Assembly (NCBI GenBank): GCA_964017155.1
Contig: OZ024864.1
Coordinates: 30,929,467 to 30,993,466, forward strand
DNA length: 64,000 bases
Reading direction: 5' to 3'
Source: Oasisia sp. SBJ-2009
Lineage: Eukaryota > Annelida > Polychaeta > Sabellida > Siboglinidae
A program made the translations under genes and the position numbers. The notes below the pieces were generated by a model. That model searched no databases. It worked only from the letters and a program-made list of their open reading frames with translations, and was not told where the DNA came from. Positions 9,880-49,000 of this stretch are shown here, in pieces; position 1 is the stretch's first letter; each line of letters starts with the position of its first letter.

Positions 9880-10545
9880 CTCTCACTCAATCACCCACCC
9901 TCCCACTCTCCCAATCACCCACCCACCCTCCCAATCACCCACCCTCCCACTCTTCCAATCACCCACCCACCCTCCCAATCACCCACCCACCCTCCCAATC
10001 ACCCACCCACCCTCCCAATCACCCACCCACCCTCCCAATCACCCACCCACCCTCCCAATCACCCACCCTCCCTCCCAATCACCCACCCACCCTCCCAATC
10101 ACCCACCCTCCCTCCCAATCACCCACCCTCCCTCCCAATCACCCACCCACCCTCCCAATCACCCACCCACCCTCCCAATCACCCACCCACCCTCCCAATC
10201 ACCCACCCACCCTCCCAATCACCCACCCACCCTCCCAATCACCCACCCACCCTCCCAATCACCCACCCACCCTCCCAATCACCCACCCACCCTCCCAATC
10301 ACCCACCCACCCTCCCAATCACCCACCCACCCTTCCCAATCACCCACCCACCCTTCCCAATCACCCACCCCCTCCCAATCACCCACCCACCCTCCCAATC
10401 ACCCACCCACCCTTCCCAATCACCCACCCACCCTCCCAATCACCCACCCACCCTTCCCAATCACCCACCCACCCTTCCCAATCACCCACCCACCCTCCCA
10501 ATCACCCACCCTCCCTACTCACCCAGTCATTCACCCACCCACCCA
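9880..10545. repeat. 20-bp minisatellite, G4-forming on the minus strand
   Basis: About 32 tandem copies of ACCCACCCACCCTCCCAATC with minor variants (CCCTCCCTCCC units, +1 T units). On the minus strand each unit reads GGGAGGGTGGGTGGGT, four G-tracts with one-base loops, an ideal intramolecular G-quadruplex. The open frame through it (THPPNHPPTLP period) arises because 20 bp gives a 60-bp coding period without stops. It lies 0.5 kb past the stop of the death-domain gene. Confidence 0.97.
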
Positions 10546-21464: not shown

Positions 21465-22325
21465 ATATCTTTATTTCAGACTGTCATACAGATGTCCACA
21501 TAAACATTAACAAATACAAGTGACTAAAAATATATATAAAGGTATTGCACATGTTAAATAGAAAAAAACATTGCACAGTGGTACATTCAGTCAAAAACTA
21601 TTATGTATATACAACATTTTTATCCAATGGCAATGTCGTCTTATCCTGGATTGCCATTTTATATCACTGTTGATAATTGCAATTACCAACTTATTATAAG
21701 AGGCATCAAGTCTCCGCATGAATTTATATACAAGGTTTCTAATTACAGCTTTACTATCTGGTACATGGTATTCTACAAAAATGGTGGAGGCACTGCAATA
21801 TTTAGGCTGATTTAGCAGTAAGCGAAACACATTATTGTAAGCCACATGAAGTTTATGTATACTTGCTACTGTGTAATTCCACCACAGCTGAGCAGTATAC
21901 ATAGGAGAGCAGAAAGTTCTAAGCAAAGTCAGTTTCACGTCAGTGGAACACATGTAAAATTTCCGCAATAGCGTATTACCCCTAGCATATAGTTGTCGGC
22001 ATTGGCGTAAAATATCTTTGTCATCACGTAATGTATTAGAAATAAAGTGACCCAAATATTTCACATTATCCACTTCCTGGATTGTTTCACCATTAATCTT
22101 AAATGATGGAACATCAAACATTTTCATATATTTACTTTTAAATATTAACACAGCACTTTTCTTGGAATTGTACTTGATATCATGGTTTAAACCATAGAGT
22201 CCACATACCTGCATCAGTTCAGACAGTCCTGATACAGATGGGGAAAGAATTACCAAATCATCAGCATACATAAGATGGTTGATAGTTGTACTACCTATTA
22301 CACACCCTATGTTACATTTGTTTAA
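21465..22325 (-). pseudogene. LINE-B, 3' part: end of reverse transcriptase ORF2
   Basis: Minus-strand frame from the RT catalytic box onward: GSTTINHLMYADDLVILSPS (YADD), then HDIKYNSKKSAVL, VKYLGHFISNTL and the C-terminal thumb-like region to a stop at 21591, followed by a short 3' UTR. The missing N-terminal part is found on the same strand at 27165-30235. The joined RT would read ...GILSPYLFNVYMDEL (27 kb) to LNKCNIGC... (22.3 kb), so one LINE was split by the insertion 22323-27165. Confidence 0.8.
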
Positions 22326-22706
22326 AGTGAAAAAAAAGGCTACAGTTTAGTGTTATGCACCTAAAAGAGTTTACACTAGCTAATCATTTGCATCTACAAT
22401 CCAATTTTTCACCTTAATGGTTACCTCAGAAAGTGGTCTTAAAGTGGGAAAATCTAGCTAAATCACCGACACCATGAACCGGCCCATCTTGGATCTTGCA
22501 ACCAATCACAACCCAGCAGTTTGGAAAAGTAATACGTCAGAGAGTCGTCTGCTGGTTCAGCTGTCATAACAGAGAGCCAAGCGGTACGTACGCTAAAAGT
22601 TGCCTTACGTCGGTTTACAACGAAATCGCGACATCAATATGCCACACTGTTCCTCAAACGCTTATAGTAATAGTACAGTGAAAGACAGTATCAGTAAGAT
22701 GTCTTC

Positions 22707-24995
22707 TTGTTAACCTATGAATTGTTAACCTTTGTGTTAGAACCAACCAGGGACAAGAACGTGTTGGACATAGTTTTGAGCTCACAGAAGGAATTTGTTG
22801 ATAATGTCAATATATGTGAGCCACTGGGATGTAGTGATCATAACCAGATACATTTTATCATCAAAGTAAAAGGAGAACGGAACAGAAAAATACGGTACAG
22901 GACAAATTTTCACAAAGGAAGATATAAGGACATGAGGGAATATTTAGCGAAGATAGACTGGAATAACACACTGAAGAATAAGACAGCAACAGAATGCTGG
23001 AATATCTTAAAGAGGGAAATTGACTGCGTCGTTGACAAATTTGTCCCCTTGAAAAAACAAGGGAAAAGGTCAAAGAAGAAACACTTATCGAAGGAAGCCA
23101 TTAGAAAAATCAAGTACAAGCAAATGATGTGGAAGACATATAGACATACTGGAAGTGAAGAAGACTATGCCATTTATAAAGAAGCACTTAATCAAGCTAC
23201 AGCTGAAATTAGAAATTCGAAGAGAAGCTATGAACAAAAAATAGCTTTCAACATAAAACATGACAGCAAGAGTTTTTATGAGTATGTTCGAAGTAAACAG
23301 AAAGTTCAAGATAAGGTCGGGCCACTAGAAGGTAGTGATGGAAACATAATAACGGAGGGATTCTTAATGGCAGAAAACCTAAATGAATACTTTAGTTCGG
23401 TGTTTACCAGGGAAGATATTAGTACATTACCAGTACTAGAGACTAAGTTCGAAGGGAGAGAGTGTGACTATTTAGGACAACTAACTGTAACCCCAAAAAT
23501 GGTAGCTATGAAAATAAGAGATATGAAGGATAATAAATCACCAGGAGTGGATGGGATTCCTCCCAAATTACTACTGGAAATTGTAGAACAAATTAGCATA
23601 CCACTTGCAACAGTGTTCAATTTGGCATTAGAGGAAGGAGTGGTTCCGGTAGAATGGAAAGAAGCAAACATCATACCATTATTTAAAAAAGGATCAAGAA
23701 GCAAGTCAGAGAACTATAGACCAGTGAGTTTAACATCGGTGATTTGTAAACTATTAGAAAGACTAATTAAAGATCACTTGGTTGATTTTCTTGTTAAAAA
23801 TAAATTGATAAACACATCTCAACATGGGTTTTTAAAAGCGAGGTCATGCTTAACAAATATGTTATGTTTTTTGGAAGATGTCACAAAGTGGGTAGATGAG
23901 GGATCACCAGTAGATATAATCTACTTAGATTTTAAAAAAGCCTTTGACAAAGTGCCACACCAAAGATTACTACTTAAACTAAAGGCCCATGGCATAGGAA
24001 ATAGTATGATTAACTGGATAGAAAAATGGCTTATTGATAGAAGACAAAGAGTAGTAGTTGATGGGGAGGTTTCAAATTGGAAATCTGTTTTGAGTGGAGT
24101 ACCGCAAGGATCAGTATTGGGACCTATTTTATTCTTAATATATATCAATGATTTGGATGATGACGTAACAAGCAAGGTGTTGAAGTTTGCGGACGACACA
24201 AAAGTGTTTAGGAAAATAAAAAGTGATGCAGATAGACAGCATTTACAAGATGATCTAAATAAGTTGATAGAATGGTCTGAGAAATGGCAAATGCTGTTTA
24301 ACTTTGGAAAGTGTAAGTGCCTCCACACAGGACATGGGAATGAAAATGCACAATATACAATGGGTGGTACTGTACTAAATACTACTGTAAAGGAAAAGGA
24401 CTTAGGTTTAACCATTAGTGCTGACATGAAGGTATCAGAGCAGTGTGGAATTGCAGCAGCGAAGGCAAACCAAATTCTTGGATTAATTAGGCGAAATATA
24501 GTATACAAAGAAAAAGAACTAATAATACCGCTTTATAAAACAATAGTTAGGCCTCATTTAGAATATTGTATACAAGCATGGAGGCCATATCGCAAGAAGG
24601 ATATTGATATGCTAGAAAGAGTACAAAGGAGAGCAACAAAAATGATACAAAAACTCAGGAATATTAGTTATGAAATGCGTCTAAAGGAATGTGGTCTAAC
24701 AACACTAGAAACCAGAAGATTGAGAGGAGATCAGATTGAGGTTTTTAAAATATTGAATGGGTATGAAAATATTGACAGAAATATTTTTTTCACGGTCAAG
24801 GAAGAGAGAAGGACTAGAGGACATGGAGTTGCATTAGCAAAGAAGCAGTGTAGACTAGATATTAGAAAATTTTCATTTTCCCAAAGAATAGTAAACGAAT
24901 GGAACAAATTATCAGCTGATTGTGTAGGTGCTAGAAGTGTTAATATGTTTAAAAATAAAATTGACATATACCTAAGACGGGCAGGGTATACTTAG
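22707..24995 (+). CDS. CR1-like LINE ORF2: end of EN plus complete reverse transcriptase
   Basis: Uninterrupted 762-codon frame; the first recognisable family residues are around PTRDKNVLDIVLSS. The endonuclease domain is reduced to its last motif (GCSDHNQIHFII), so the copy is 5'-truncated near 22735. The RT domain is complete: DNKSPGVDGIPPKLL, SENYRPVSLTSVICK, QHGFLKARSC, YLDFKKAFDKVPH, SGVPQGSVLGPILFLIYIND, and the catalytic KFADDTKVF. The C-terminus (RRLRGDQIEVFKIL, ...RKFSFSQRIVNEWN) is the jockey/CR1-type tail. The RT copies element RNA at a nicked target. Absence of stops implies a young copy. The start codon in use is unknown because the true N-terminus is missing. Confidence 0.9.
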   Translation: MLTYELLTFVLEPTRDKNVLDIVLSSQKEFVDNVNICEPLGCSDHNQIHFIIKVKGERNRKIRYRTNFHKGRYKDMREYLAKIDWNNTLKNKTATECWNILKREIDCVVDKFVPLKKQGKRSKKKHLSKEAIRKIKYKQMMWKTYRHTGSEEDYAIYKEALNQATAEIRNSKRSYEQKIAFNIKHDSKSFYEYVRSKQKVQDKVGPLEGSDGNIITEGFLMAENLNEYFSSVFTREDISTLPVLETKFEGRECDYLGQLTVTPKMVAMKIRDMKDNKSPGVDGIPPKLLLEIVEQISIPLATVFNLALEEGVVPVEWKEANIIPLFKKGSRSKSENYRPVSLTSVICKLLERLIKDHLVDFLVKNKLINTSQHGFLKARSCLTNMLCFLEDVTKWVDEGSPVDIIYLDFKKAFDKVPHQRLLLKLKAHGIGNSMINWIEKWLIDRRQRVVVDGEVSNWKSVLSGVPQGSVLGPILFLIYINDLDDDVTSKVLKFADDTKVFRKIKSDADRQHLQDDLNKLIEWSEKWQMLFNFGKCKCLHTGHGNENAQYTMGGTVLNTTVKEKDLGLTISADMKVSEQCGIAAAKANQILGLIRRNIVYKEKELIIPLYKTIVRPHLEYCIQAWRPYRKKDIDMLERVQRRATKMIQKLRNISYEMRLKECGLTTLETRRLRGDQIEVFKILNGYENIDRNIFFTVKEERRTRGHGVALAKKQCRLDIRKFSFSQRIVNEWNKLSADCVGARSVNMFKNKIDIYLRRAGYT

Positions 24996-27122: not shown

Positions 27123-29259
27123 TCACTCTGTTAATCCCATATGATCCAAACATTGACTTTGTTTTCCCTTTAACTCATCCATATATACATTAAAAAGGTA
27201 TGGTGAGAGTATACCACCTTGCCTAACACCATTTGTAACACCAAAATGTTCCGACAATTTGCCTGACCATCTTATACACATAGTCTGGTTCGAATACCAA
27301 TGTATAAGCAGTCTAACAATATATCCAGGCACTCCCCTGTCAATCAACTTTTGAAATAAGATAGAATGTTTCACTCTATCAAAGGCTTTAGAAGCATCTA
27401 AAAACATGTAAACCTAGACCCATTTAGACTCCTATGCCTGTCAATAACTTCCTTTAAGACATAAATACACAAGTCTGTCCCGTGTTTTTTCTTAAATCCA
27501 AACTGATTGGGCATTGTTGACAGCGTAACTGACATTCTGTCTAACAATATGTTTTCAACCATTTTTGACACAATACTAGCTAATGCAATAGGTCTGTAAT
27601 TGTCCTTGCTGTTAGTCTTGCCACATTTATCTTTGATAATAGGAACCAGCACAACAGATAACAAAGAACTAGGTAAAAATCCATGTACAAAAAACCCAGT
27701 TATACACATGGCAAGTAAAGGCACAATGCGCTTATCACAATGTTTAAGGTGTTCAGCATATATACCATCCATACCACAAGTCTTATTTATATCCAGGCAT
27801 TTAATAGCATTTTCAACTTCGCTAATTTCCACAACTATGTCATTTGTATATTTGGAATCACATTTGATCTGTTGAATGTCTATATCCCTAATACAATTAA
27901 AAAGCTGTTTAAAATGAGACCGCCATAATTAAGTTATTTCATCAATACCAGTAACATCCTCAATACTGTTAGGTAAAGGTATATTACAGTTGTTTACCTG
28001 GCGTATCTCTTTCCAAAAGTCATCTGGCCGAGACTGTGCGACAGCTTTTTTGCCAATGAATCCTTTCTAAGTTGGCATTCATGATTTTTAAGAAAACGTA
28101 TTGCATATTTAAACCTTGCCCTAGATGTCTTCATTAGATCAAACACAGGACCATGTTTTGGTCTACCAGCATCAATCCACATAATGAAGCATTCTCTGGC
28201 AGCAGTATGGAGATCTCTGGCATGGTCATTCCAGCCAGGTCTACATTTGTATGGTTTTGTCCTACCCTGCCGACTAACCAGTTCATCATTTGCATTTTTC
28301 ATAGATTCAATAATATTATCATAAAATAAATTGATCGTAGATATATGTGCATCATCTGTACAGTTTACATTATTACATATAATAGCATCGTGTGGAATAT
28401 TAGCATTGTTCAGGTTACACTTTGTTGCCTCAGCATAGCCATTAATACATTCATCACTAACTCTATCCCAGCTGATTTTGTTACACTCGTGGGTTGATAA
28501 ACCCTCAACCTGAGGCACTAGCTCCAGGGAAACATCGATACATATCGGAATGTGATCCGACGTACAAACACTATATAACACATCTATATTCTGAATAACA
28601 TTGTGACCATCACTGGTGGACACACAGTGGTCCAACCATGAGGTGGAATCCCACCTTTCACTTAAATAAGTAAACATATTTGCTGGCAGTAACAGCTCAC
28701 TAGAGAGCAACCAGCAATTTTCCTCACAAAACTGTTTAAAGTGTCTACAAAAAACCGATTCACTGTCACTTATATCTGAGTTCCAGTCCCCAATACAGAA
28801 ATACATGTAGTGTCTAACTCCTCTATCACTGCTTTAATAGTACCAAGATTTTTCTAAAAACAGGTCTTCATGAGCATGCGATTCATAAGGCATGTAGACA
28901 CATAATATAACATACGTCCGCCGTCGTCCGGTTACTAATAGTAATTTTAATACCGGTTAGCCAGTCAATATTTAGATCTAAACATGCATATCAAGATGTG
29001 TGCGCCATAGTATGGCCACACCACCGGGGTTATGACTCCTACATAAACGATCCCTGTAATCTACAGTCGCGGCCCCTGTACCATGAAAATCAGAGTGTGG
29101 CTTATTTAAAGATCCAAGATCTTGTTTACTAAACCAAGTTTCTTGGAGGCATACAGTATCAATGTCATCATCATTTAATATGTCCAGCACACAGGGTCTA
29201 TGGTGTAATTGTGAGGCTTTATTTGGTAGGCCCCTACAGTTATAAGAAATAATTTTCAT
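27123..29259 (-). pseudogene. LINE-B ORF2, 5' part: APE endonuclease and N-terminal RT
   Basis: Endonuclease start at 29259 (MKIISYNCRGLPNKASQL, then DTVCLQETWFS with the catalytic Glu, PGGVAILWR). EN end and linker 28806-27994 (FCIGDWNSDIS, LDHCVSTSDG, CTSDHIPI with the catalytic His). RT N-terminus 27832-27398 (CGMDGIYAEHLKHC, KDNYRPIALASIVSK, QFGFKKKHGTDLCI). RT palm 27407-27165 (MFLDASKAFDRVKHSIL, GVRQGGILSPYLFNVYMDEL). Frames shift between these blocks and 28807-28978 holds stops, so it is inactive. The rest of the RT is at 21591-22325. Confidence 0.85.
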
Positions 29260-30864: not shown

Positions 30865-33800
30865 ATGACGTCAACAATGCAGCTGTCTCGACTTTGTGGT
30901 GTCTTTGCTGTCATAAAGCCAACAGGAATAACTTCAGCGAAGCTTGGCGACAGGATTCGCGATGACTTACAAAAGGGTAGGTATTGTGCAATCATATATG
31001 TATTTTTATATATGTAAATTTAGTTTCACGCTTTTTTGGATGCCATCTAAAATAAGCTAGAAATGTATGCCAGGATCAAAACATTTATTGAACATAATTT
31101 TTTTGAGTGTATCGAGAATGGAATTGAGCAACTTAATACCTGATTTTCTGCAGTGGGTCACATGTTAACAAATGCAAAATAAATATTCTATCAGAGACAT
31201 TTTCAAAACATTATATTTGCTGACACTGTGTCAGCAAATATAATGTTTTGAAAATGTCTCTGATAGAATATTTATTTTGCATTTGTTAACATGTGACCCA
31301 CTGCAGAAAATCAGGTATTAAGTTGCTCAATTCCATTCTCGATACACTCAAAAAAATTATGTTCAATAAATGTTTTGATCCTGGCATACATTTCTAGCTT
31401 ATTTTAGATGGCATCCAAAAAAGCGTGAAACTAAATTTCACAAGTTTGCTGCTTAATACACACTGTTTACAAAAAATACTCTCTTTCCCAGGCCATGGTA
31501 CAATTTGCAACAATTAATTCCAAATTGTAAATAATTCTTGTTTCTGTTTTAGAGATTGGGTGTGAACTCTTGAAAGGTCGAAGACTAAAGATTGGTCATG
31601 GTGGCACATTAGACATGTTTGCCACGGGGGTGATGTGCTTTGGCCTTGGGGCAGGGTGTAAACAGTTACATGCGTTACTACACGGAAAAAAGGTATTTTA
31701 ATATGTTGAGTTTTGACAAACATGTATATATAAATCTCCATAATTTGTACTGTCATATTTACACAGATACGTGTCATTTTTTTAAGGTGTCATTATTTTA
31801 TTAACTAAGGGAAATAGTTTAAACAGAAGGCTTGTATTAAAATAATAAAGTTAAATGTTATATCATATGTGGTTTGGCTAATATTGTAGAATATTTCAAT
31901 TACACATGTTTATTATAAATCACTTAGGTTCACATTATTATGCATATTAATTTTACATAATTATGCAAAGAGAAATTTAGTATTGTAACATGAATTATTA
32001 TTGTTATGTAGGTATGTCTGATTGATGAATTATCGACCACATTACGGCTGTTTACATCTGTTGACATTTGTTTTATGTCTCTTCAGAGGTACTTGTACTT
32101 GTCAACTTGTTTATATCTGGATGACATTTGTTTTATGTCTCTTCAGAGGTACTTGTCAACTTGTTTATATTTGGTGACATTTGTTTTATGGCTCTTCAGA
32201 GGTACTTGTCAACTTGTTTATATCTGGTGACCTTTGTTTTATGTCTCTTCAGAGGTACTTGTACTTGTCAACTTGTTTATATCTGGATGACATTTGTTTT
32301 ATGTCTCTTCAGAGGTACGTGTCAACTTGTTTATATTTGGTGACATTTGTTTTATGTCTCTTCAGAGGTACGTGTCAACTTGTTTATATCTGGTGACATT
32401 TGTTTTATGTCTCTTCAGAGGTACGTGTCAACTTGTTTATATTTGGTGACATTTGTTTTATGTCTCTTCAGAGGTACGTGTCAACTTGTTTATATCTGGT
32501 GACATTTGTTTTATGTCTCTTCAGAGGTACGTGTCAACTTGTTTATATCTGGTGACATTTGTTTTATGTCTATTCAGAGGTACGTGTCAACTTGTTTATA
32601 TCTGGTGACATTTGTTTTATCTCTTCAGAGGTACTTGTCAACTTGTTTATATCTGGTGACATTTGTTTTGTCTCTTCAGAGGTACTTGTAAACTTGTTTA
32701 TATCTGGTGACATTTGTTTTATGTCTCTTCAGAGGTACTTGTCAACTTGTTTATATCTGGTGACATTTGATTTATGTATCTTCAGAGGTACTTGTCAACT
32801 TGTTTATATCTGGTGACATTTGATTTATGTATCTTCAGAGGTACTTGTCAACTTGTTTATATTTGGTGACATTTGTTTTATGGCTCTTCAGAGGTACGTG
32901 TCAACTTGTTTATATCTGGTGACCTTTGTTTTATATCTCTTCAGAGGTACTTGTACTTGTCAACTTGTTTATATCTGGATGACATTTGTTTTATGTCTCT
33001 TCAGAGGTACGTGTCAACTTGTTTATATCTGGTGACATTTGTTTTATGTCTCTTCAGAGGTACGTGTCAACTTGTTTATATCTGGTGACATTTGTTTTAT
33101 GTCTCTTCAGAGGTACGTGTCAACTTGTTTATATCTGGTGACATTTGTTTTATGTCTCTTCAGAGGTACTTGTCAACTTGTTTATATCTGGTGACATTTG
33201 TTTTGTCTCTTCAGAGGTACTTGTCAACTTGTTTATATCTGGTGACATTTGTTTTATGTCTCTTCAGAGGTACTTGTCAACTTGTTTATATCGGGTGACA
33301 TTTGTTTTATGTCTCTTCAGAGGTACGTGTCAACTTGTTTATATCTGGTGACATTTGTTTTATGTCTCTTCAGAGGTACTTGTCAACTTGTTTATATCTG
33401 GTGACATTTGTTTTATGTCTCTTCAGAAGTACTTGTCAACTTGTTTATACCTGGTTACATTTGTTTTATGTCTCTTCAGAGGTACTTGTCAACTTGTTTA
33501 TATCTGGTGACATTTGATTTATATATCTTCAGAGGTACTTGTCAAGTTGTGTATATTTGGTGACATATGTTTTATGGCTTTTCAGAGGTACTTGTCAACT
33601 TGTTTATATCTGGTGACCTTTGTTTTATGTCTCTTCAGAGGTACTTGTACTTGTCAACTTGTTTATATCTGGATGACATTTGTTTTATGTCTCTTCAGAA
33701 GTATGTGTCAACTTGTTTATATCTGGTGACATTTGTTTTATGTCTGTTCATAGGTAAGTGTCAACTTGTTTATATCTGGTGATGTTTGTTTTATGTCTCT

Positions 33801-36800
33801 TCAGAGGTACGTGTCAACTTGTTTATATCTGGTGACATTTATTTTATGTCTCTTCAGAGGTACTTGTCAACTTGTTTATATCTAGTGACATTTGTTTTAA
33901 GTCTCTTCAGAGGTACTTGTCAACTTGTTTATACCTGGTTACATTTGTTTTATGTCTCTTCAGAGGTACTTGTCAACTTGTTTATATCGGGTGACATTTG
34001 TTTTATGTCTCTTCAGAGGTACTTGTCAACTTGTTTATATCTGGTGACATTTGTTTTATGTCTCTTCAGAGGTACTTGTCAACTTGTTTATACCTGGTTA
34101 CATTTGTTTTATGTCTCTTCAGAGGTACTTGTCAACTTGTTTATATCTGGTGACATTTGATTTATATATCTTCAGAGGTACTTGTCAAGTTGTTTATATT
34201 TGGTGACATATGTTTTATGGCTTTTCAGAGGTACTTGTCAACTTGTTTATATCTGGTGACATTTGTTTTATGTCTCTTCAGAGGTACTTGTCAACTTGTT
34301 TATATCTGGTGACATTTGTTTTATGTATCTTCAGAGGTACTTGTCAACTTATTTATATCTGTCGACACTTGTTTTATGTCTCTTCAGAGGTACTTGTCAA
34401 CTTGTTTATATCTGGTGACATTTGTTTTATGTCTCTTCAGAGGTACGTGTCAACTTGTTTATATCTGGTGACACTTGTTGTATGTCTCTTCAGAGGTACG
34501 TGTCAACTTGTTTACATCTGGTGACATTTGTTTTATGTCTCTTCAGAGGTACATGTCAACATGTTTATATCTGGTTACATTTGTTTTATGTCTCTTCAGA
34601 GGTACGTGTCAACTTGTTTATATCTGGTGACATTTATTTTATGTCTCTTCAGAGGTACTTGTCAACTTGTTTATATCTAGTGACATTTGTTTTAAGTCTC
34701 TTCAGAGGTACTTGTCAACTTGTTTATACCTGGTTACATTTGTTTTATGTCTCTTCAGAGGTACTTGTCAACTTGTTTATATCGGGTGACATTTGTTTTA
34801 TGTCTCTTCAGAGGTACTTGTCAACTTGTTTATATCTGGTGACATTTGTTTTATGTCTCTTCAGAGGTACTTGTCAACTTGTTTATACCTGGTTACATTT
34901 GTTTTATGTCTCTTCAGAGGTACTTGTCAACTTGTATATATCTGGTGACATTTGATTTATATATCTTCAGAGGTACTTGTCAAGTTGTTTATATTTGGTG
35001 ACATATGTTTTATGGCTTTTCAGAGGTACTTGTCAACTTGTTTATATCTGGTGACATTTGTTTTATGTCTCTTCAGAGGTACTTGTCAACTTGTTTATAT
35101 CTGGTGACATTTGTTTTATGTATCTTCAGAGGTACTTGTCAACTTATTTATATCTGTCGACACTTGTTTTATGTCTCTTCAGAGGTACTTGTCAACTTGT
35201 TTATACCTGGTTACATTTGTTTTATGTCTCTTCAGAGGTACTTGTCAACTTGTTTATATCTGGTGACATTTGATTTATATATCTTCAGAGGTACTTGTCA
35301 AGTTGTTTATATTTGGTGACATATGTTTTATGGCTTTTCAGAGGTACTTGTCAACTTGTTTATATCTGGTGACATTTGTTTTATGTCTCTTCAGAGGTAC
35401 TTGTCAACTTGTTTATATCTGGTGACATTTGTTTTATGTATCTTCAGAGGTACTTGTCAACTTATTTATATCTGTCGACACTTGTTTTATGTCTCTTCAG
35501 AGGTACTTGTCAACTTGTTTATATCTGGTGACATTTGTTTTATGTCTCTTCAGAGGTACGTGTCAACTTGTTTATATCTGGTGACACTTGTTGTATGTCT
35601 CTTCAGAGGTACGTGTCAACTTGTTTACATCTGGTGACATTTGTTTTATGTCTCTTCAGAGGTACATGTCAACATGTTTATATCTGGTGACACTTGTTTT
35701 GATGTCTCTTCAGAGGTACTTGTTAATCTGTTTATGTCTGGTGACACTTGTGTTATGTCTCTTCAGAGGTACATGTCAACTTGTCGGTTGGGGGTAGCCA
35801 CAGAAACATACGGAGCTGAGAGCAGATTGACGAAAGAACTGCCTTACAGTAGGTACCCTCAAAGGAATATAATTATGAAATGCGTCTAAAAGAATGTGGT
35901 TTAACAACACTAGAAACCAGAAGATTGAGAGGAGATCAGATTGAGGTGTTTAAAATATTGAAAGGGTATGCAAAAATTGACAGAAATATTTTTTCCTCGG
36001 TCAAGGAAGAGAGAAGGACTAGAGGACATGGAGTTACATTAGCAAAGAAGCAGTGTAGACTAGATATTAGGAAATTTTCATTTTCACAAAGAACAGTTAA
36101 TGAATGGAACAGAATATCAGCTGATTGTGTAGGTGCTAGTAGTGTTAATATATTTAAAATTGACATACCTAAGACGGGCGGGATATTCTTAGATATATAG
36201 GTTGGACTCTCTATAAGCCAAAAGGCTTCCTAATCCACATGCCATCTAGAGTTGAATCTCTAGGTGGCAGTCTTGTTAAATCTTGTTAAAGCTTCAGGTG
36301 GTAGTTGCAGTACATGTATAGGAAACCTTTGTATGTGTTGACTTTCTTAGGGCTACTATTTCCGAGAGGACACACCAAACATGACAGTGTGATAAAGTTG
36401 ATACTACATGGTCTAGGTGTCAGTTCATATTATCTATGATTGTGTAGATACTGTAGCACTACAACAATAGTTGAATACATGACCTCTGGGAGATATCATC
36501 TGATGTATGGAGTTATTTTAGCTGATTCTGTTGTACCAGTTCCTTGTAATTAACACTGCAGGTTAGGAACATACAATCTCTGAGAACAGTTACCTAGCTA
36601 CATGGAACATATTAAAAACACAAACAAACAATCAATTGTTTCCAAAGCAATATACTCATAACAAAAATACATTATATAATTTCTAATCAACACTGACCAC
36701 ATATCAGTAGCTATGGTTGCTCATACAGAGTATATGTTGTCACTTGGGAGTAGTGTAACGGTTGTCTTTGTTCTGCCAGGTCATGTGACCAGAGACCAGC

Positions 36801-39800
36801 TACAAGAAGCGATATCAACATTCACTGGACAGATATCACAAACGCCCCCCGTGTGAGTATATGTCACCCTTAGTATATGTCACCCTTAGATGTCCCCAGC
36901 CTAGGGTGGACAAGTTAGATAATGTACACGTATTTCATGTTATAACTCGATATGTTATCGATACACAAACAGTTATAATTTGCACTGGCCGTTTATAGCT
37001 CTGCAAAGTTGGCGCGAATACAGCCTTGTCTGTATCACAGCATATCACGATACCAATATGGTGTACCATGCCATGGGGTGTGTATCACGATACACTGGTA
37101 CACCGGTGTATTGTTCTGGCCCTATCAGTCGGGCATCTCATTGAAACCAGATGCATGATTCCTTGTCGAGTCTGACTAACTGCATAGTGGACATTCACTG
37201 GTGAAGTGAGTAAGGTGTGCCTTTTGGTGCTTCGCTTGCTCGAAGCTGACAGCCTCATACGACAAAAAATGACTGGAATAAATAAAGTGAAAATAGTGTA
37301 AATGCCAGCAGTGTAAATTTGTTCAAAAAATTAATTTGACACTTTTCTGGCGAGAACAGGTTACATCTAGGTTGAACATTATTTTTAGGAGTTATTTTAA
37401 TATTGAATCAATTATTTATTTTAATAAATTTATTGTTATTACGAATGCATTGCTATTATTGTAATATATTTTATCTAAGCATTATTGAATTTTTAGAGAC
37501 CTCACATTTTATTTAGTAGCTTAGCATTTTAGACTTTTAAAATATTTATAATTTTATGTATGTTACTAATTCATGTACAGTTTTATAAGAAATAATATTA
37601 CTTTTAGTTGGACTCTCGATAGGCCAAACCTTCCTTGTTCACATACTGTCTGGAACTTAGTTAGCTCGAGACGGCGATCTTGTTAAGTCTTGTTAAATCT
37701 AGTTCATGTTATTTCTGATCTTGCTGTATCTTATCCTCTTTTCCTCATTCGGAACAACGACCTGTCTTCTGTCTCCCAGATGTTGTAAGACCACAATAAG
37801 GTGTTCATCCGCCATTACCTGACCAAAGAGTACCTTATAAAATTAGCATTATGCGGGTTGTCTGAATTTCTGTGAGCACTTATGTAGTGTGGAGTGAGTA
37901 GAAATAATGTTTTGTGCAGCGTGGCATCAGAGCTGTCAAAATATGACATCTGTCAGTCGGTGCATTTCTGTGTATTAATACAGTTGTCATTTTGCTTGGT
38001 GATGTAATGAGGGACAGTCCGTGGGTGGTTCAAGCAGAAATGGAGGGGTGTAAGGTTTGAAAGAAGTTTGTGGGAGTCTGAGGTACTAAAAATTAACACA
38101 ATTTTCACTGAACCTCTGTCAATGGAGGGTAAATATGCTGTGAAACTGTCAATAACAGAACACATCAAGATGAGTAGGAAATGAAGGAAACGTTATAATG
38201 GTCGCCTATGGAAAATGCAAATGTGGTCTGACTCCAGATTCTCCGCCCTGAAACACAAAGGGAAAAGGTTGTCGGACATGGCCCGGGCCGGAGACACTCT
38301 CCCTGAGATACAGCCTCGACTCGTACAAGTGGACAGCATCGCGTGCCTGGACTTCTCTCCCCCCTACTTCACACTGGGTTGGTACCGCCTTCTTGCAAAG
38401 GCTGTCGTTGTCCCTTCTTTCCATATACCATATTCATTCTGGTCAGTTTACAGAACACTTCAAGATTTTATAGGGCGTGTAAGTCTCGCACACGAAAACG
38501 AGGCTGGGGGCAGGAAGTCCATATTCTCCATGTTAACATATAGGACTTTGTTTTGTTTTTGTTTGTAATAATCGAACTGTTCCCAAATAGCGTATTTCAG
38601 TTATATTGTCCAAAGGATTATTACAAGCAGAAGCAGTGGAACACTTTGCCGGTGACAATGATCACGGAAATCATGAATTTTAATCGATTATTATGATGGT
38701 TGCCATGGTATTAGCGGCAAGTACTTGTGTTTGGCGATCTTGACTAATAATGAAGAGTGCCATTTTTCGCGCAGTACAACCTGTTTGGGGCAAACGTATA
38801 CATGTCTTATGATTATGTGCATTTAGACAACTTGTCAGATATAAGTGCTTATCGAAACCACAACATACAGCAATGTAAAATGCAAATCCTGTAAAAGACA
38901 CATACGGCCTAAAATCGTGTTTATTATCTGCACTATGTAAATTGCTATAAGTCTATGATAGTGTGATAAACTCAATATAGAATTGGACATTTAAGATAAG
39001 AAAGGTATAACACAAGAATATCTATGACCTGATTTTCCCAGTATTCATCAGTCGGAAGTTACAACTGTCATCCACCGTTTGAATATTATTCTTATGACCA
39101 GTCCCCGAATCAGCTCCAATCGCGTGGAGTCTCACCATGTATCGTGACACACTTACACGCCCTATAAGTAGCCAGATGTTGAAAATATTTACAAAAATAT
39201 TTTTTCTCGGCTAAGGAAGAGAGAAGGACTAGAGGACATGGAGTTACATTAGCAAAGAAACAGTGTAGAAAATGTTCATTTTCACTAAGAAAGCAAATGA
39301 ATGGAACAGATTATCAGCTGGTTTGTGTAGGTGCTAGTAGTGTTAATATCTTTAAAAATTAAATCAACTTCTTTTAATATCTAAGAAGAGCGGGGTACAC
39401 TTAGATAGATAGGTTAGACTGTTGATAAGCCAAAGGGTTTCCTAGTCCGCCTACCATCTAGAGTTGAGTCTCTAGGTGGCAATCTTGTTAAATCTTGACA
39501 CCTTAACAACGTTCTGAAAAACCTGTGGCCAAGGATATGGGCATTTGGTGACTGTTGGCAGGGCTAAATCTATTCTCTACAAATGTCTTCAGCTGATAGA
39601 TGGATGGTTCTCTTGCTCTGTGAAACCACATAATCATTGCGTAAGTTTGAGAACAACCGAGTATTATCCAACTAATAATCAGTAAAAATGTGAACCGGTA
39701 ATTAATTTTAATTGTTCAAGTGTTGTAAGAGAAAACCCTGACATATATCTGCCAAATTGGTGTAGTATAGGAGAGGACAAAGCATGCATGCATGCATACA

Positions 39801-41019
39801 TACATACATACATACATACATACATACATACATACATACATACATACATACATACATACATACATACATACATACATACATACATACATACATACATACA
39901 TACATACATACATACATACATACATACATACATACATACATACATACATACATACATACATACACACAATAGTTGGATTATTATTAGATTATAATAGTAA
40001 CAGTGTGGTTAGTGACATCTAGAAATGTTGCAACATTACTGGTTAATTTTATATAAAATTCATTTTGCAGGTAAAACATCAAACACAAAAAAAGAAAAAA
40101 ACACTACTAGATTCTCAATACTATTTTACCTCATTTTTTTAGATATAAAATGTGGAGGTGGCTTTTACGTGCGGAGCTTAGTTCACGACTTGGGAGAAGG
40201 TGCGGTATCTGAAACTATTATTATTTATAGAACATGTCCACAGAAAATAAAAATGGAGTCATTTGAAGTCAATTCTCAGCATGCAGACCTGAAATTATGG
40301 TTTGGTCACGAGATTCTAAAGTAATGTTGCATATCACTGCACATTTGCTCCTACTGTTGACTTAATCTGTCCAACTATAATATATCACAAATAACTCTGT
40401 CACAGAAATAAACCATTGTTATGTTTCTTGTACATTTTTCCAGTTCTGCTGGGAACCATGTTTTTGGTAAATTCTGTGTTCTAAAAGTAAAATCCTGAGA
40501 GTTGGCAAAATTCTGAATTTCGTGATCATTTTCACAACTGACCGGCTTGATACATGAATCTAACTTATTTGACAAATTTACCTAACAAGTAATTTATTAT
40601 ATTGAATATATTGTTCATGGCTCCAAGAATGGTTTATTGTAGTATAATTAACTTACTTTGGAGCGTAATTGTCCAAGATGAGTATGTGAACAAGGCCCGT
40701 AGATGACGGGTCGAAATGTCGTACTCATCATCGACAATTAAGCTCCAAAGTAAGTTAATTATACTACAAGTAATTTATTGTTTTATTTCACACAGCCATT
40801 TCTTTTGCAGCCGTTGCCAGTTGTGCCCACGTGGTGGCGCTAGAGAGAACCGAACATGGCCCGTTCACCCGAGACGATGCAATTCCCGAATATCAGTGGA
40901 CACTGGAGAATGTCCTCATGGCCATTGATGCCGCAGAAGCAAAGTTTGGTGACTACACGAAAGATGCACAGTGCGGTGTTAATACAGTCAGAATATCAAC
41001 AAGAAATAAAGGAATATGA
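30865..41019 (+). CDS. trub1: TruB-family tRNA pseudouridine synthase (TRUB1), 7 exons, 270 aa
   Basis: Exons: 30865-30976, 31553-31692, 35767-35848, 36780-36852, 38238-38377, 40143-40199, 40811-41019. The CDS is 813 nt and every junction is phase-consistent with good GT/AG sites. Family motifs in order: GVFAVIKPTGITS (motif I, residues 12-24), KIGHGGTLDMFATGV with catalytic Asp58, KKRY at the exon 2/3 junction, RLGVATETY, FTGQISQTPPV, FSALKHKGKRL, IKCGGGFYVRSLVHDLGE (motif III), ALERTEHGPFT. TRUB1 isomerises U55 of the tRNA T-loop to pseudouridine. The protein is shorter than human TRUB1, mainly at the N-terminus. Introns 1 and 2 are odd (palindrome, splice-acceptor array). Introns also hold CR1 fragments and a foldback element. 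A candidate poly(A) signal ATTAAA lies at 41078-41083. Confidence 0.95.
31016..31438. repeat. 423-bp palindrome, one-base centre, no mismatch seen
   Basis: Two 211-bp arms around a single T at 31227 (GCTGACAC-T-GTGTCAGC at the centre). By eye every base of 31016-31226 is mirrored by 31228-31438. Outside, the sequences diverge at once (ATGT | AAATTTAG versus the mirrored TTGTG | AAATTTAG). It lies in trub1 intron 1, 40 bp past the exon 1 donor. Confidence 0.95.
32085..35790 (+). repeat. ~53-bp tandem array (about 70 units) repeating the trub1 exon 3 acceptor
   Basis: Unit: TTTTATGTCTCTTCAG / AGGTACTTGTCAACTTG / TTTATATCTGGTGACATTTG. The first block is a polypyrimidine tract with AG, the second equals the first ~18 bases of exon 3 (codons RY.STC). 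The final unit runs straight into exon 3 at 35767. Variants (GTACGT, ACTTGTACTTG, CTGGATGAC) recur in blocks: ~692 bp (13 units) at 32128/32820/33514, 795 bp (15 units) at 33786/34581 and 34210/35005, and 318 bp (6 units) at 35005/35323. This shows higher-order duplication. The many frames through it (MFYVSSEVLVNLF type) are artefacts. Confidence 0.97.
35860..36295 (+). mobile_element. CR1-like LINE, 3' copy B
   Basis: Begins inside ORF2 (MRLKECGLTTLETRRLRGDQ at 35880), keeps the frame to the C-terminus with small indels, and ends with the tandem TCTTGTTAAA pair. Inserted in trub1 intron 3 only ~10 bp past the exon 3 donor. Very similar to copy A. Confidence 0.9.
36990..37600. other. trub1 intron 4, palindromic TATCACGATAC-rich stretch then AT-rich
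   Basis: 37030-37110 has several near-palindromic pieces (TATCACGATAC, GGTGTACC, GTATCACGATACAC). The rest is AT-rich. Nothing coding. Confidence 0.4.
37600..37695 (+). mobile_element. CR1-like LINE, 3' UTR copy D
   Basis: Only the last ~90 bp: GTTGGACTCTCGATAGGCCA to the terminal TCTTGTTAAG/TCTTGTTAAA pair. In trub1 intron 4. Confidence 0.8.
39183..39500 (+). mobile_element. CR1-like LINE, 3' copy C, decayed
   Basis: Starts around GAAAATATTTACAAAAATAT with AAGGAAGAGAGAAGGACTAG, then the ORF2 end with deletions, then the 3' UTR ending CTTGTTAAATCTTG. In trub1 intron 5. Confidence 0.85.
39784..39966. repeat. (TACA)n microsatellite
   Basis: About 45 TACA units after GCATGCATGCATG, in trub1 intron 5. 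Open frames in several registers are artefacts. Confidence 0.98.
40600..40775 (+). mobile_element. Foldback element with central hammerhead-like core
   Basis: Flank ATTGTTCATGGCTCCAAGAA, then inverted ends TAGTATAATTAACTTACTTT (40641) and AAAGTAAGTTAATTATACTA (ending 40768). Related sequences are at 13490-13635 and 43338-43432. Lies in trub1 intron 6. Confidence 0.75.
40677..40729 (+). ncRNA. Candidate hammerhead ribozyme (minimal stem III)
   Basis: Stem I GATGAGTAT / GTACTCATC (9 bp counting one wobble); core GTGAACA in place of CTGANGA, i.e. C3 to G together with G8 to C, which keeps the essential C3-G8 pair; stem II GGCCCGT / ACGGGTC (7 bp, 5-base loop); GAAA; then UG-UC, where GUC would be the cleavage triplet and stem III is almost absent. 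Fold and covariation are visible. Activity is inference. Confidence 0.5.
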
Positions 41020-46000: not shown

Positions 46001-49000
46001 CGCACCCGCACTCCAGCACGGGACGTGAACAGTTCGTCACTGACGTACGCATCTACAGAACACAACACCAACAAATAACTAGACAGCCCGCAATAGACTG
46101 GACTTGAACATTTCACCCAACTGATGAAACCGACCTTAATAATAATAATAAAAGCATTTGTATAGCGCCTTATAATAACAATACCTGTTATGAATGTAAA
46201 AATACTAAAAGCAGCTCAGAGTAATAAATAAATAAATCCTAAAAACTTCATACATCCGTCAATGTTCATGAGTAAAAACCTCTGTTGAATAAACAAGTTT
46301 TAAGGTGTCTTTTGAACTGGTATATTGAATCACACGTTTGCATATTGCGTAGTAGATCGTTCCATAAGTGAGGAGCAGCGATGCAGAACGCTCGATCACC
46401 GAACTGGCGGAGATGTGCCCTGTGTACAACCAGTATGGACTCTGATGACGATCGCAATGTTCTGATTGGCTGGTAGAACTAGAGCTGATCGGAGAGGTAG
46501 CTAGACCCAAGTAGATGACTGGCTTTGTACATTGTTAGTATGATCTTGTATTGAATGCAAGTGCTATTGGCTAAAGTTCACGTCAGTGGGGAATTCCTCT
46601 ACCAGATTCAGACAGTGGATGTTTTGGATGTTCCCATAGACAGTAAAAAATGTGTCCACCATTTGTGAAGGGAAACCACGAAGAATGTGTTTCGAACAAG
46701 TGCAATCGGTTCTGTTTCACAACATTCAGACTTGGAAATATTATAGTATAGTATATATATTATATATATAGTATATAAATAGTAATATAAATGGGAAATA
46801 AGCATTGCCAATTGATAGAAAAGATAATAGTGACAAAAAGTCAAAATAATAGTGACAAAAAGTCCAAATCATCGTGCAATGTTTATGTTGTTTTCTTGAA
46901 ATCAATTTCACTGACATCAGAATCATTTTGTTAGAACATGTCACATTTAGTTATAAATGACACCATCATGATTGTGACATGGCCCCTAAGACTTGTGTGA
47001 CTGTGACACGGCCCCCAGAACTCACCTGATCCGACACTGTTGCGCACCATGGACATGGCCCCAATGACCTTGAGACCCCTCGGCTTCCAGTGGGCCAGAA
47101 GCTGCAACAGGGGACCATTTGATAGGAGGGCCCATTTGATTCAAGGCACCATTTAATTCAAGGCACCATTTACTACAAGGGACATTTTAACTCAAGACAC
47201 CATTTCCTATAAGGGACCATTTAATTAAATGGACATATTAATTCAAGACACCATTTACTACAAGGGACCATTTAATTCCAGGGACATATTAACACAAGTG
47301 ACCATTTACTACAATGGACCATTTATTTCCAGGGACATATTAACACAAGGGATTATTTACTACAAGGGACCATTTATTTCAAGGGCCATATTAACACAAG
47401 GGACTATTTACTACAAGGGACCATTTAATTCAAGGGACATATTAACACAAGGGACTATTTACTACAAGGGACCATTTATTTCCAGGGACATATTAACACA
47501 AGGGACTATTTACTACAAGGGACCATTTAATTCAAGGGACATATTAACACAAGGGACCATTTACTACAAGAACCGTGCAATACAAGGGAATGTTTATATA
47601 AGGGACCATTTAATACAATGGATCAGTTAATACTAGGGAACACGCAGGAAGCAACATTACGGGGAGAAACCATAGGAGGAAATGCAAGATATAAATTTCA
47701 AACAATTTCAATCCTCCATCCACTAAATCCGAAACTTACCTTGAACAAACCGGCGACAAACGCTGCGCCACATTTATCACGGTGCATGCCGGCCATGGCA
47801 CCGCCGTACTTGATGTCAGCACCGCCGGTGTCGTAGGTCACGCCCTGTGAACCCAACACACATTGACCTTACTCAGCGGCGTATATCATTTCATATTATG
47901 TATGCTTTTTTATATTTTACAAATCTGCAGTATTACAACGGTATCCTAGTAAACCTCTTTGTTTAGAATTAGGAACCAAAAACACCACGTGTAAAAATAA
48001 CAGCAATTTATTTTCCCACAGGTTCATTGTGACAATCAGACCATTCTCCACTTAATGCAAGAATGTATGTTGTAACTTTGCAAAGTTTAGTAGTAACTAT
48101 TCCGCTTATAGAGCGCAGTGGCTCAGGGGTAGAGCTTCGGACTCGACTACCAGAACCCGGGTTCGAATCCTGTGCTGCAGTGGGCAAGTTTTTTCACTCT
48201 ACATTGCTCCAGTTCACTCACCTGTATAAATGAGTACCTGGCTATAGACAGTGGTGGATATGTGTACGAGAAGCCTTCGCGCATTAATTGTAGCATATGG
48301 CTGGATGCTTCCCAGAGAAGCCGAGATGGTGTCTGAGTGAACAGGTCTGTCAGGGAAGTAAAGTGTAAAGTGCTTTGAACGGTCCTGAGGACTGGATACT
48401 GCGCTATACAAGACCACCATTTTGTTTAAATCTTTCTCAGGGGTTTTAACATCGTTCTTTTCAGTTGAGTTCTGGAGCCCTAAAAAAGAGCACCCAAAGT
48501 GGTAATGAACGTGACATTTGTATTAATAATAATCATGACTTAGTGTTTATAGTTAGCATATTAATGTACAGATACTGTACCTTTCCAACAAACATGAGGG
48601 TTGTGTCAACGGGATGTTCCGGGTCACAATACTCAAGATGGATGACTCGGGCAGCCTGACGATCAATGGCTACAACACAACGTGATTGGTTACTTTCTTT
48701 TCATCACCAAAGGAGGGATTGTAATAATAATAGTAACTAAATAATAAACTTGGCAGAGAAACATTTCCCTGGAGATTGGAGAGAAAAATGAGACAATGAC
48801 CCATAATGCAACGGGAAGATTGCTCAGAGGGTTGGAGAGATTGGGAGACAGCCAGAGTGGGGTGGAGACAGTTGGTACTGAACCGATACAACAAACAACA
48901 GAATTACACCGTGATTTCCTAGCAGTTAAATCTCAAAATCGAATTACATCACACCATGGGGTTAACTCTCGGCTTACACCTCAAGTCTCAGGTGGGTTCC

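Follow-up and report, generated by a model that had tools for sequence, protein, structure and literature searches.

We report that intron 2 of the plus-strand TRUB1 gene of the tubeworm Oasisia sp. SBJ-2009 contains a head-to-tail 53-bp minisatellite, the units of which each carry a near-copy of the acceptor of exon 3 (that is, 69 decoy acceptors upstream of the real one). The array lies in a 64,000-nucleotide stretch of contig OZ024864.1, hereafter the window, in which all positions are counted. On balance, we consider it probable that the array was seeded by duplication across the boundary between intron 2 and exon 3, and that it is tolerated because the body of exon 3 favours the last acceptor.

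Tandem Repeats Finder delimits an array with the layout of a minisatellite, or variable number tandem repeat (VNTR), with a period of 53, 70.1 copies, 92% matches and a score of 6231. The existence of such an array had been recognized in an earlier sequence-only reading of the window, although its start is at 32049 and not at 32085, as given there. A motif scan recovered 70 acceptors between 32087 and 35767, the last of which is the real acceptor of exon 3, in agreement with the approximately 70 near-identical sites that had been claimed. The units are less uniform than the approximately 53 bp of that reading implied: 59 of the 69 spacings between acceptors are 53 nt, and the others are 60 (four), 51 (four), 55 (one) and 54 nt (one).

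The consensus unit comprises, in this order, a branch-site-like TGAC motif, a tract of pyrimidines, CAG and the 18 bases with which exon 3 begins. The exact sequence TTCAG/AGGTAC (a slash marks the splice junction) is present at 67 of the 70 acceptors, including the real one; as in splice-site-bearing VNTRs, the unit holds a copy of the genuine splice site of the exon next to it. Intron 2 contains this 11-mer 66 times, whereas the rest of the window lacks it, as did each of 200 versions of the intron shuffled with dinucleotides preserved. TGAC is found at most 29 nt upstream of 59 of the 70 acceptors and is missing from that interval in the other 11; at 54 sites, its A precedes the AG by 22 nt. 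Over the first 18 exon bases, the real exon and the array consensus differ at base 7 only (ATG versus TTG). Thirty distinct types occur among the 69 units, which differ from the consensus at 2.4 positions on average; the last unit before exon 3 has 6 differences, and at least 6 are present in 7 of the other 68 units. Exact internal repeats of 525 bp (offset of 1113 bp, or 21 units) and 356 bp (offset of 795 bp, or 15 units) are also present. At its left end the repeat starts with TGTTTACATC, preceded by CATTACGGC, and at its right end it extends to CAACTTGT, followed by CGGTTGG; TGT is present at both ends.

The gene that hosts the array is intact. Seven exons, the edges of which were placed by hand from the reading frame and GT–AG borders (that is, without a gene predictor), join into one 270-amino-acid TruB protein that ends at TGA, confirming the end of exon 2 (31692), the real acceptor (35767) and the end of exon 3 (35848) proposed previously. 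Pfam assigns TruB_N (143.6 bits) and TruB_C_2 (35.1 bits) to the joined protein. A protein search gave 504 matches, and the named proteins among the 120 listed include TRUB1; on the basis of the TruB catalytic domain, the intact frame and the nearest relationship to TRUB1 among these 120, we identify the host gene as TRUB1. The best match among those listed is NP493_296g02037 of Ridgeia piscesae (97% identity over the full 270 amino acids), followed by P0002 (88%) and P0003 (79% over 61% of the query); the closeness of the first would place the host near Ridgeia, among the vestimentiferan tubeworms. The exon-derived 18 bases of the unit encode RY(M/L)STC (RYMSTC in the exon of the window itself). 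Residues K84 and Y86 in the protein of the window, which belong to the K-x-Y segment, are nearly invariant across 13 aligned TRUB1 sequences (annelid, crustacean, insect, horseshoe crab, sea star and frog proteins among them).

A coding role of the array itself was considered and rejected, as its 178-amino-acid reading frame gave only a Pfam match to DXPR_C at 19.7 bits (cut-off of 27). Comparison of the unit with the rest of the window by blastn returned only matches of 10–12 bases among the first ten listed, the exact unit pattern had no match in viral and prokaryotic contig collections (which says little about dispersal), and Rfam had no match in the window.

Arrays in relatives and origin of the repeat

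A search with the 178-amino-acid array frame, which can find arrays in relatives only if they are open in one frame, recovered three ENA proteins (P0121, P0122 and P0123). All three are readings of the orthologous array running into exon 3, which supplies the last acceptor signature in each; the relatives therefore carry the acceptor similarity that the sequence-only reading had asked to be looked for and not an unrelated satellite. P0121 (64,593-base contig) shows 8 acceptor signatures at spacings of 53, 52, 53, 53, 53, 53 and 53 nt, and P0122 (34,129-base contig) shows 6, at spacings of 53, 52, 53, 53 and 53 nt; both counts are lower limits, and the upstream ends show no match to the left flank in the window. 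The C termini of these two proteins are LQ, which fits the codons just before the TAG that lies in frame at the donor of exon 3. In P0123 (595-base contig; 5 signatures spaced 43, 39, 53 and 53 nt apart), both flanks are visible: its tblastn alignment begins at 31963, and 31 of 42 residues are identical through the first acceptor (counted by hand). Four decoys thus stand between the same two flanks that enclose 69 in the window, unless copies were collapsed in the short contig. These orthologues indicate that the array predates the present lineage, and its length seems to vary from one relative to another.

A profile search, in which the best 7989 candidates were scored, returned the same three proteins together with P0124, which is the open reading frame (ORF) of the window itself, and P0125, an 84-amino-acid array-like peptide with frame breaks; P0124 and P0125 are both on 927,632-base contigs. 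P0125 is absent from the six frames of the window and is not produced by any splicing of 31500–36000, and might stem from another allele or from a further array, now decayed, elsewhere on that contig.

Given that stretches of 525 and 356 bp recur exactly within the array, and given the small numbers of acceptors in the three relatives, the assembler might have inflated a short array or joined alleles. We regard this as very improbable, given the diversity of unit types and the fact that three other contigs also show the 53-nt spacing running up to exon 3; such an error could, moreover, affect the copy number but not the existence of the array.

For the origin of the array, we suggest that an ancestral segment of approximately 53 bp, made up of 38 intronic bases (branch site, tract and CAG) and the first 15–18 bases of exon 3, underwent a tandem duplication, for which TGT microhomologies probably served as the ends; TGT at both ends of the array would be the microhomology that such an initial event should leave. 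We take the exon piece to be the original, given that it codes for RYMSTC within the conserved K-x-Y segment of TRUB1. This, together with the arrays of the relatives that likewise end in exon 3, supports growth from the exon edge, which had been raised before as one possible history. Expansion to 69 extra acceptors may then have occurred by unequal exchange or slippage, with block duplications of 15 and 21 units. As both P0002 and P0123 have leucine at the residue for which the exon in the window has the ATG codon, the majority sequence of the array (TTG) may preserve the older sequence of the exon.

Choice of acceptor and candidate mini-introns

Most decoys resemble the real acceptor closely: 58 of the 69 have an equal or higher pyrimidine content, and 41 match it exactly over 14 intronic and three exon bases. 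The sequences downstream differ more. The 82 nt after the real acceptor are 61% purine and 49% GC and contain 11 GAR/AGA-type motifs (a set of our own choosing that serves as a crude stand-in for splicing enhancers), compared with means of 41% purine, 34% GC and 1.97 motifs (maximum of 2) in the 82 nt after the decoys. This contrast in composition fits exon definition. Predicted RNA accessibility was rejected as a discriminator, given that the real site is partly above the decoy median but not unique; for branch site, tract, junction and donor, it ranks 16, 9, 25 and 37 of 70 with a window of 120 and span of 80, and 8, 9, 36 and 55 of 70 with a window of 200 and span of 150. An upstream acceptor had been expected usually to shift the frame. 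With the sequence kept up to exon 3, 46 of the 69 decoys would do so (23 keep the frame length), and every decoy, if used alone, would lead to a premature stop, which lies within the array for 67 decoys and in exon 3 or beyond for 2.

We infer from these features that the array is tolerated through the body of exon 3. As exon 3 is purine-rich, richer in GC than the array and ended by a donor, exon definition could make the last acceptor the productive one, and the decoys may bind splicing factors without committing. Messenger RNAs (mRNAs) that used a decoy would carry premature stops and would be removed, and the array would be largely neutral, with slower splicing of intron 2 as its greatest effect. 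In support of this reading, exons 2 and 3 are correctly joined in sequences from relatives, which are the only source of such evidence: in the Ridgeia gene model, the exon 2 part (GKK) is joined directly to RYMSTC, and in P0002, which is probably a cDNA, as the whole protein is encoded on a 1082-base contig, GKK is joined to RYLSTC; neither is a known carrier of the array.

Several points weigh against this explanation. The exon 3 donor, ACA/GTAGGT, is weak (0.50 on a human donor matrix, which underlies all donor scores given here), and exon definition is therefore not obviously strong. Use of the nearest decoy, 35714, would take in the whole body of exon 3, and exon composition alone thus cannot exclude this site. 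Finally, there are hints of constraint on the splice signals. CAG and GT are invariant among the 59 units with a length of exactly 53 nt (permutation P = 0.027 when CAG and AGGT are taken together and 0.097 for a splice core of 11 columns), and the most constant run is TTCAG/AGGTAC (scan P of 0.025 at 11 columns; 0.07, 0.33 and 0.32 at 10, 8 and 12 columns, respectively). These tests left out the 10 units of other lengths, one of which ends in CATAG, and used columns picked post hoc; the signal is weak and varies with columns and run length, and we do not claim selection on splice signals within the array.

Another possible role of the array is that of a dosage switch, in which decoy use yields mRNAs with premature stops, and copy number or splicing factors set the amount of TRUB1. 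The premature stops from all 69 decoys and the unvaried CAG and GT of the regular units are consistent with such a role, as is the human ABCA7 VNTR, the length of which alters splicing (PMC5954066). However, the weakness of the statistical signs and the variation in copy number among relatives (5 acceptors in P0123 versus 70 between the same flanks) make a dosage function quite unlikely.

The units also contain donor-like motifs. The sequence-only reading had proposed a weak donor, CTG/GTGACA, which is indeed exact in 38 units, scores 1.14 and would close a 27-nt pseudo-exon. It is more likely to be a branch site, because the A of TGAC lies 22 nt before the AG at 54 of the 70 sites, and given this overlap, we reject it as the main donor of the unit, although it is a possible one. 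That reading overlooked a second potential donor, in the exon-derived part, which opens with AG/GTAC (that is, a GT two bases past the acceptor). In a 53-nt unit, the stretch from this GT through the following CAG measures 51 nt and forms a candidate mini-intron, and GT is present at or two bases after the acceptor in all 70 sites. The scores are 0.35 for GAG/GTACTT (47 sites), 5.10 for GAG/GTACGT (17 sites), 0.59 for GAG/GTACAT (3 sites, including the start of exon 3 itself) and 6.51 for TAG/GTAAGT (1 site), with single variants at 0.93 and −3.69; the six donors of the gene itself score 4.47, 0.39, 0.50, 3.03, −1.19 and 4.84. Our preference for AG/GT over CTG/GTGACA is based on geometry and not on strength, as most AG/GT sites (the 47 with AG/GTACTT) are weaker than CTG/GTGACA on this matrix.

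With this geometry, intron 2 might be spliced in a stepwise or nested manner, in which mini-introns of approximately 51 nt, from AG/GTAC to the next CAG, are removed and the array shortens before exons 2 and 3 are joined. Excision inside the intron would leave no mark in the mRNA, whereas stepwise use of CAG/AG/GT would add AG at each step. A GT is available at every site, 18 of the donors (17 at 5.10 and the one at 6.51) exceed the best of the gene itself, and in the consensus a boundary-crossing duplication supplies donor, branch site, tract and acceptor, as in an intron of the potato RdRp gene (PMC4974935). We nonetheless doubt that splicing proceeds in this way, given the weak donors at 47 of the 70 sites and the single directly juxtaposed AG/GT (TTCATAG/GTAAGT at 33754); at the other 69, two bases separate AG from GT, and these sites are therefore not zero-length ratchet points (that is, recursive splice sites). 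The length of the candidate mini-introns, 51 nt, is also near the lower size limit of animal introns. That the whole array constitutes a ladder of approximately 69 candidate mini-introns, most of which have a donor, branch-site-like motif, tract and CAG of their own and which are excised stepwise or nested ahead of the final joining of exons 2 and 3, seems unlikely; if true, growth of the array would be harmless because the copies splice themselves out.

Feature coordinates and other repeats in the window

Table 1. Features of TRUB1 and of the intron 2 array (positions in the window)
Feature	Positions	Strand	Basis or remark
TRUB1 exon 1, coding part from chosen ATG	30865..30976	+	joined frame
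TRUB1 exon 2, donor AAG/GTATTT	31553..31692	+	joined frame; donor score 0.39 (human matrix)
Intron 2, 4074 nt	31693..35766	+	joined frame
Left flank of array	31963..32048	+	matched in relative P0123 by tblastn
53-bp minisatellite, 70 acceptors, reaching 18 bases into exon 3	32049..35784	+	Tandem Repeats Finder, motif scan
First unit, partial; ends in first decoy acceptor (exon-like start 32087)	32049..32086	+	motif scan
Variant unit ending TTCATAG then GTAAGT; sole directly juxtaposed acceptor and donor	33699..33760	+	
356-bp stretch, exact copy at 34580-34935	33785..34140	+	offset 795 bp
525-bp stretch, exact copy at 35164-35688	34051..34575	+	offset 1113 bp
Last unit before exon 3; real branch-site-like TGAC (35742-35745), tract and CAG	35714..35766	+	
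TRUB1 exon 3, donor ACA/GTAGGT; first 18 bases are the exon-derived unit part	35767..35848	+	
TRUB1 exon 4	36780..36852	+	joined frame
TRUB1 exon 5	38238..38377	+	joined frame
TRUB1 exon 6	40143..40199	+	joined frame
TRUB1 exon 7, coding part to TGA	40811..41019	+	joined frame

The later introns of TRUB1 contain two plus-strand fragments that resemble the end of a LINE-type ORF (35869–36200 and approximately 39190–39400), both of which include AGGACATGGAGTTACATTAGC (at 36023 and 39233). The first begins approximately 20 bases past the exon 3 donor and resembles the end of a 765-amino-acid ORF at 22698–24995 (plus strand), which has a reverse transcriptase domain (RVT_1, 122.1 bits). Further reverse transcriptase matches on the minus strand (21594–22346 and 27401–27928; 26.9 and 21.0 bits) are below the Pfam cut-off of 29.6. 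Other tandem repeats in the window comprise near-perfect simple arrays at 227–1095 (CAATG × 41.8, AATACAAAAG × 12.5 and ACGAC × 107.4) and minisatellites at 9896–10516 (20-bp unit × 30.7) and 47142–47639 (51-bp unit × 9.8, with 17-bp sub-units).

Significance and comparison with known systems

With 69 near-copies upstream of the real acceptor of an intact gene, the array amounts to a natural experiment in acceptor choice by the spliceosome. It bears on exon definition versus first-come-first-served splicing, on nested or recursive splicing and on intron gain through boundary duplication, and relatives with fewer copies could provide a dose series.

In human IFI6, a minisatellite is reported to supply repeated splice sites, which are donors and not acceptors. 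What is new here is a splice-site-bearing tandem repeat on the acceptor side with many complete signals; among the open-licence papers listed, most of them screened by title and opening of the abstract, we found no acceptor-bearing array of such size.

Individual features of the array do have published parallels. The ratchet points of Drosophila are juxtaposed acceptors and donors inside introns (PMC8605326) and resemble the array in that the two signals adjoin; however, nothing intervenes between AG and GT in ratchet points, unlike at 69 of the 70 array sites. In potato RdRp, one tandem duplication across a 3′ boundary created a new intron, supported by 106 RNA-seq reads, the donor of which was supplied by the exon part of the copy upstream (PMC4974935). 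As in TRUB1, an intron end and an exon start were duplicated, and the branch site, tract and CAG came from the parent intron, yet the potato gene has one extra copy and a demonstrated intron, whereas TRUB1 has 69 extra acceptors and the evidence is from sequence. Human tandem repeats at exon–intron boundaries form novel introns (PMC2812944) and likewise link minisatellites at boundaries to new introns, although their units average 30 bp in approximately 4 copies in recent paralogues, unlike the 70 copies of 53 bp described here.

A close likeness is to intron 18 of human ABCA7, in which a 25-bp repeat that includes the donor of exon 18 is present in approximately 12 to 427 copies, one unit is retained in RNA and the length of the repeat affects splicing (PMC5954066). 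Both are many-copy tandem repeats that abut an exon and have a splice site in each unit. The ABCA7 unit carries a donor (GT only) downstream of exon 18, whereas the tubeworm unit carries an acceptor cassette upstream of exon 3, and effects on RNA have been demonstrated for ABCA7, whereas the TRUB1 array is known from DNA alone. By analogy, the TRUB1 array can be regarded as the acceptor-side counterpart of the donor-bearing ABCA7 repeat.

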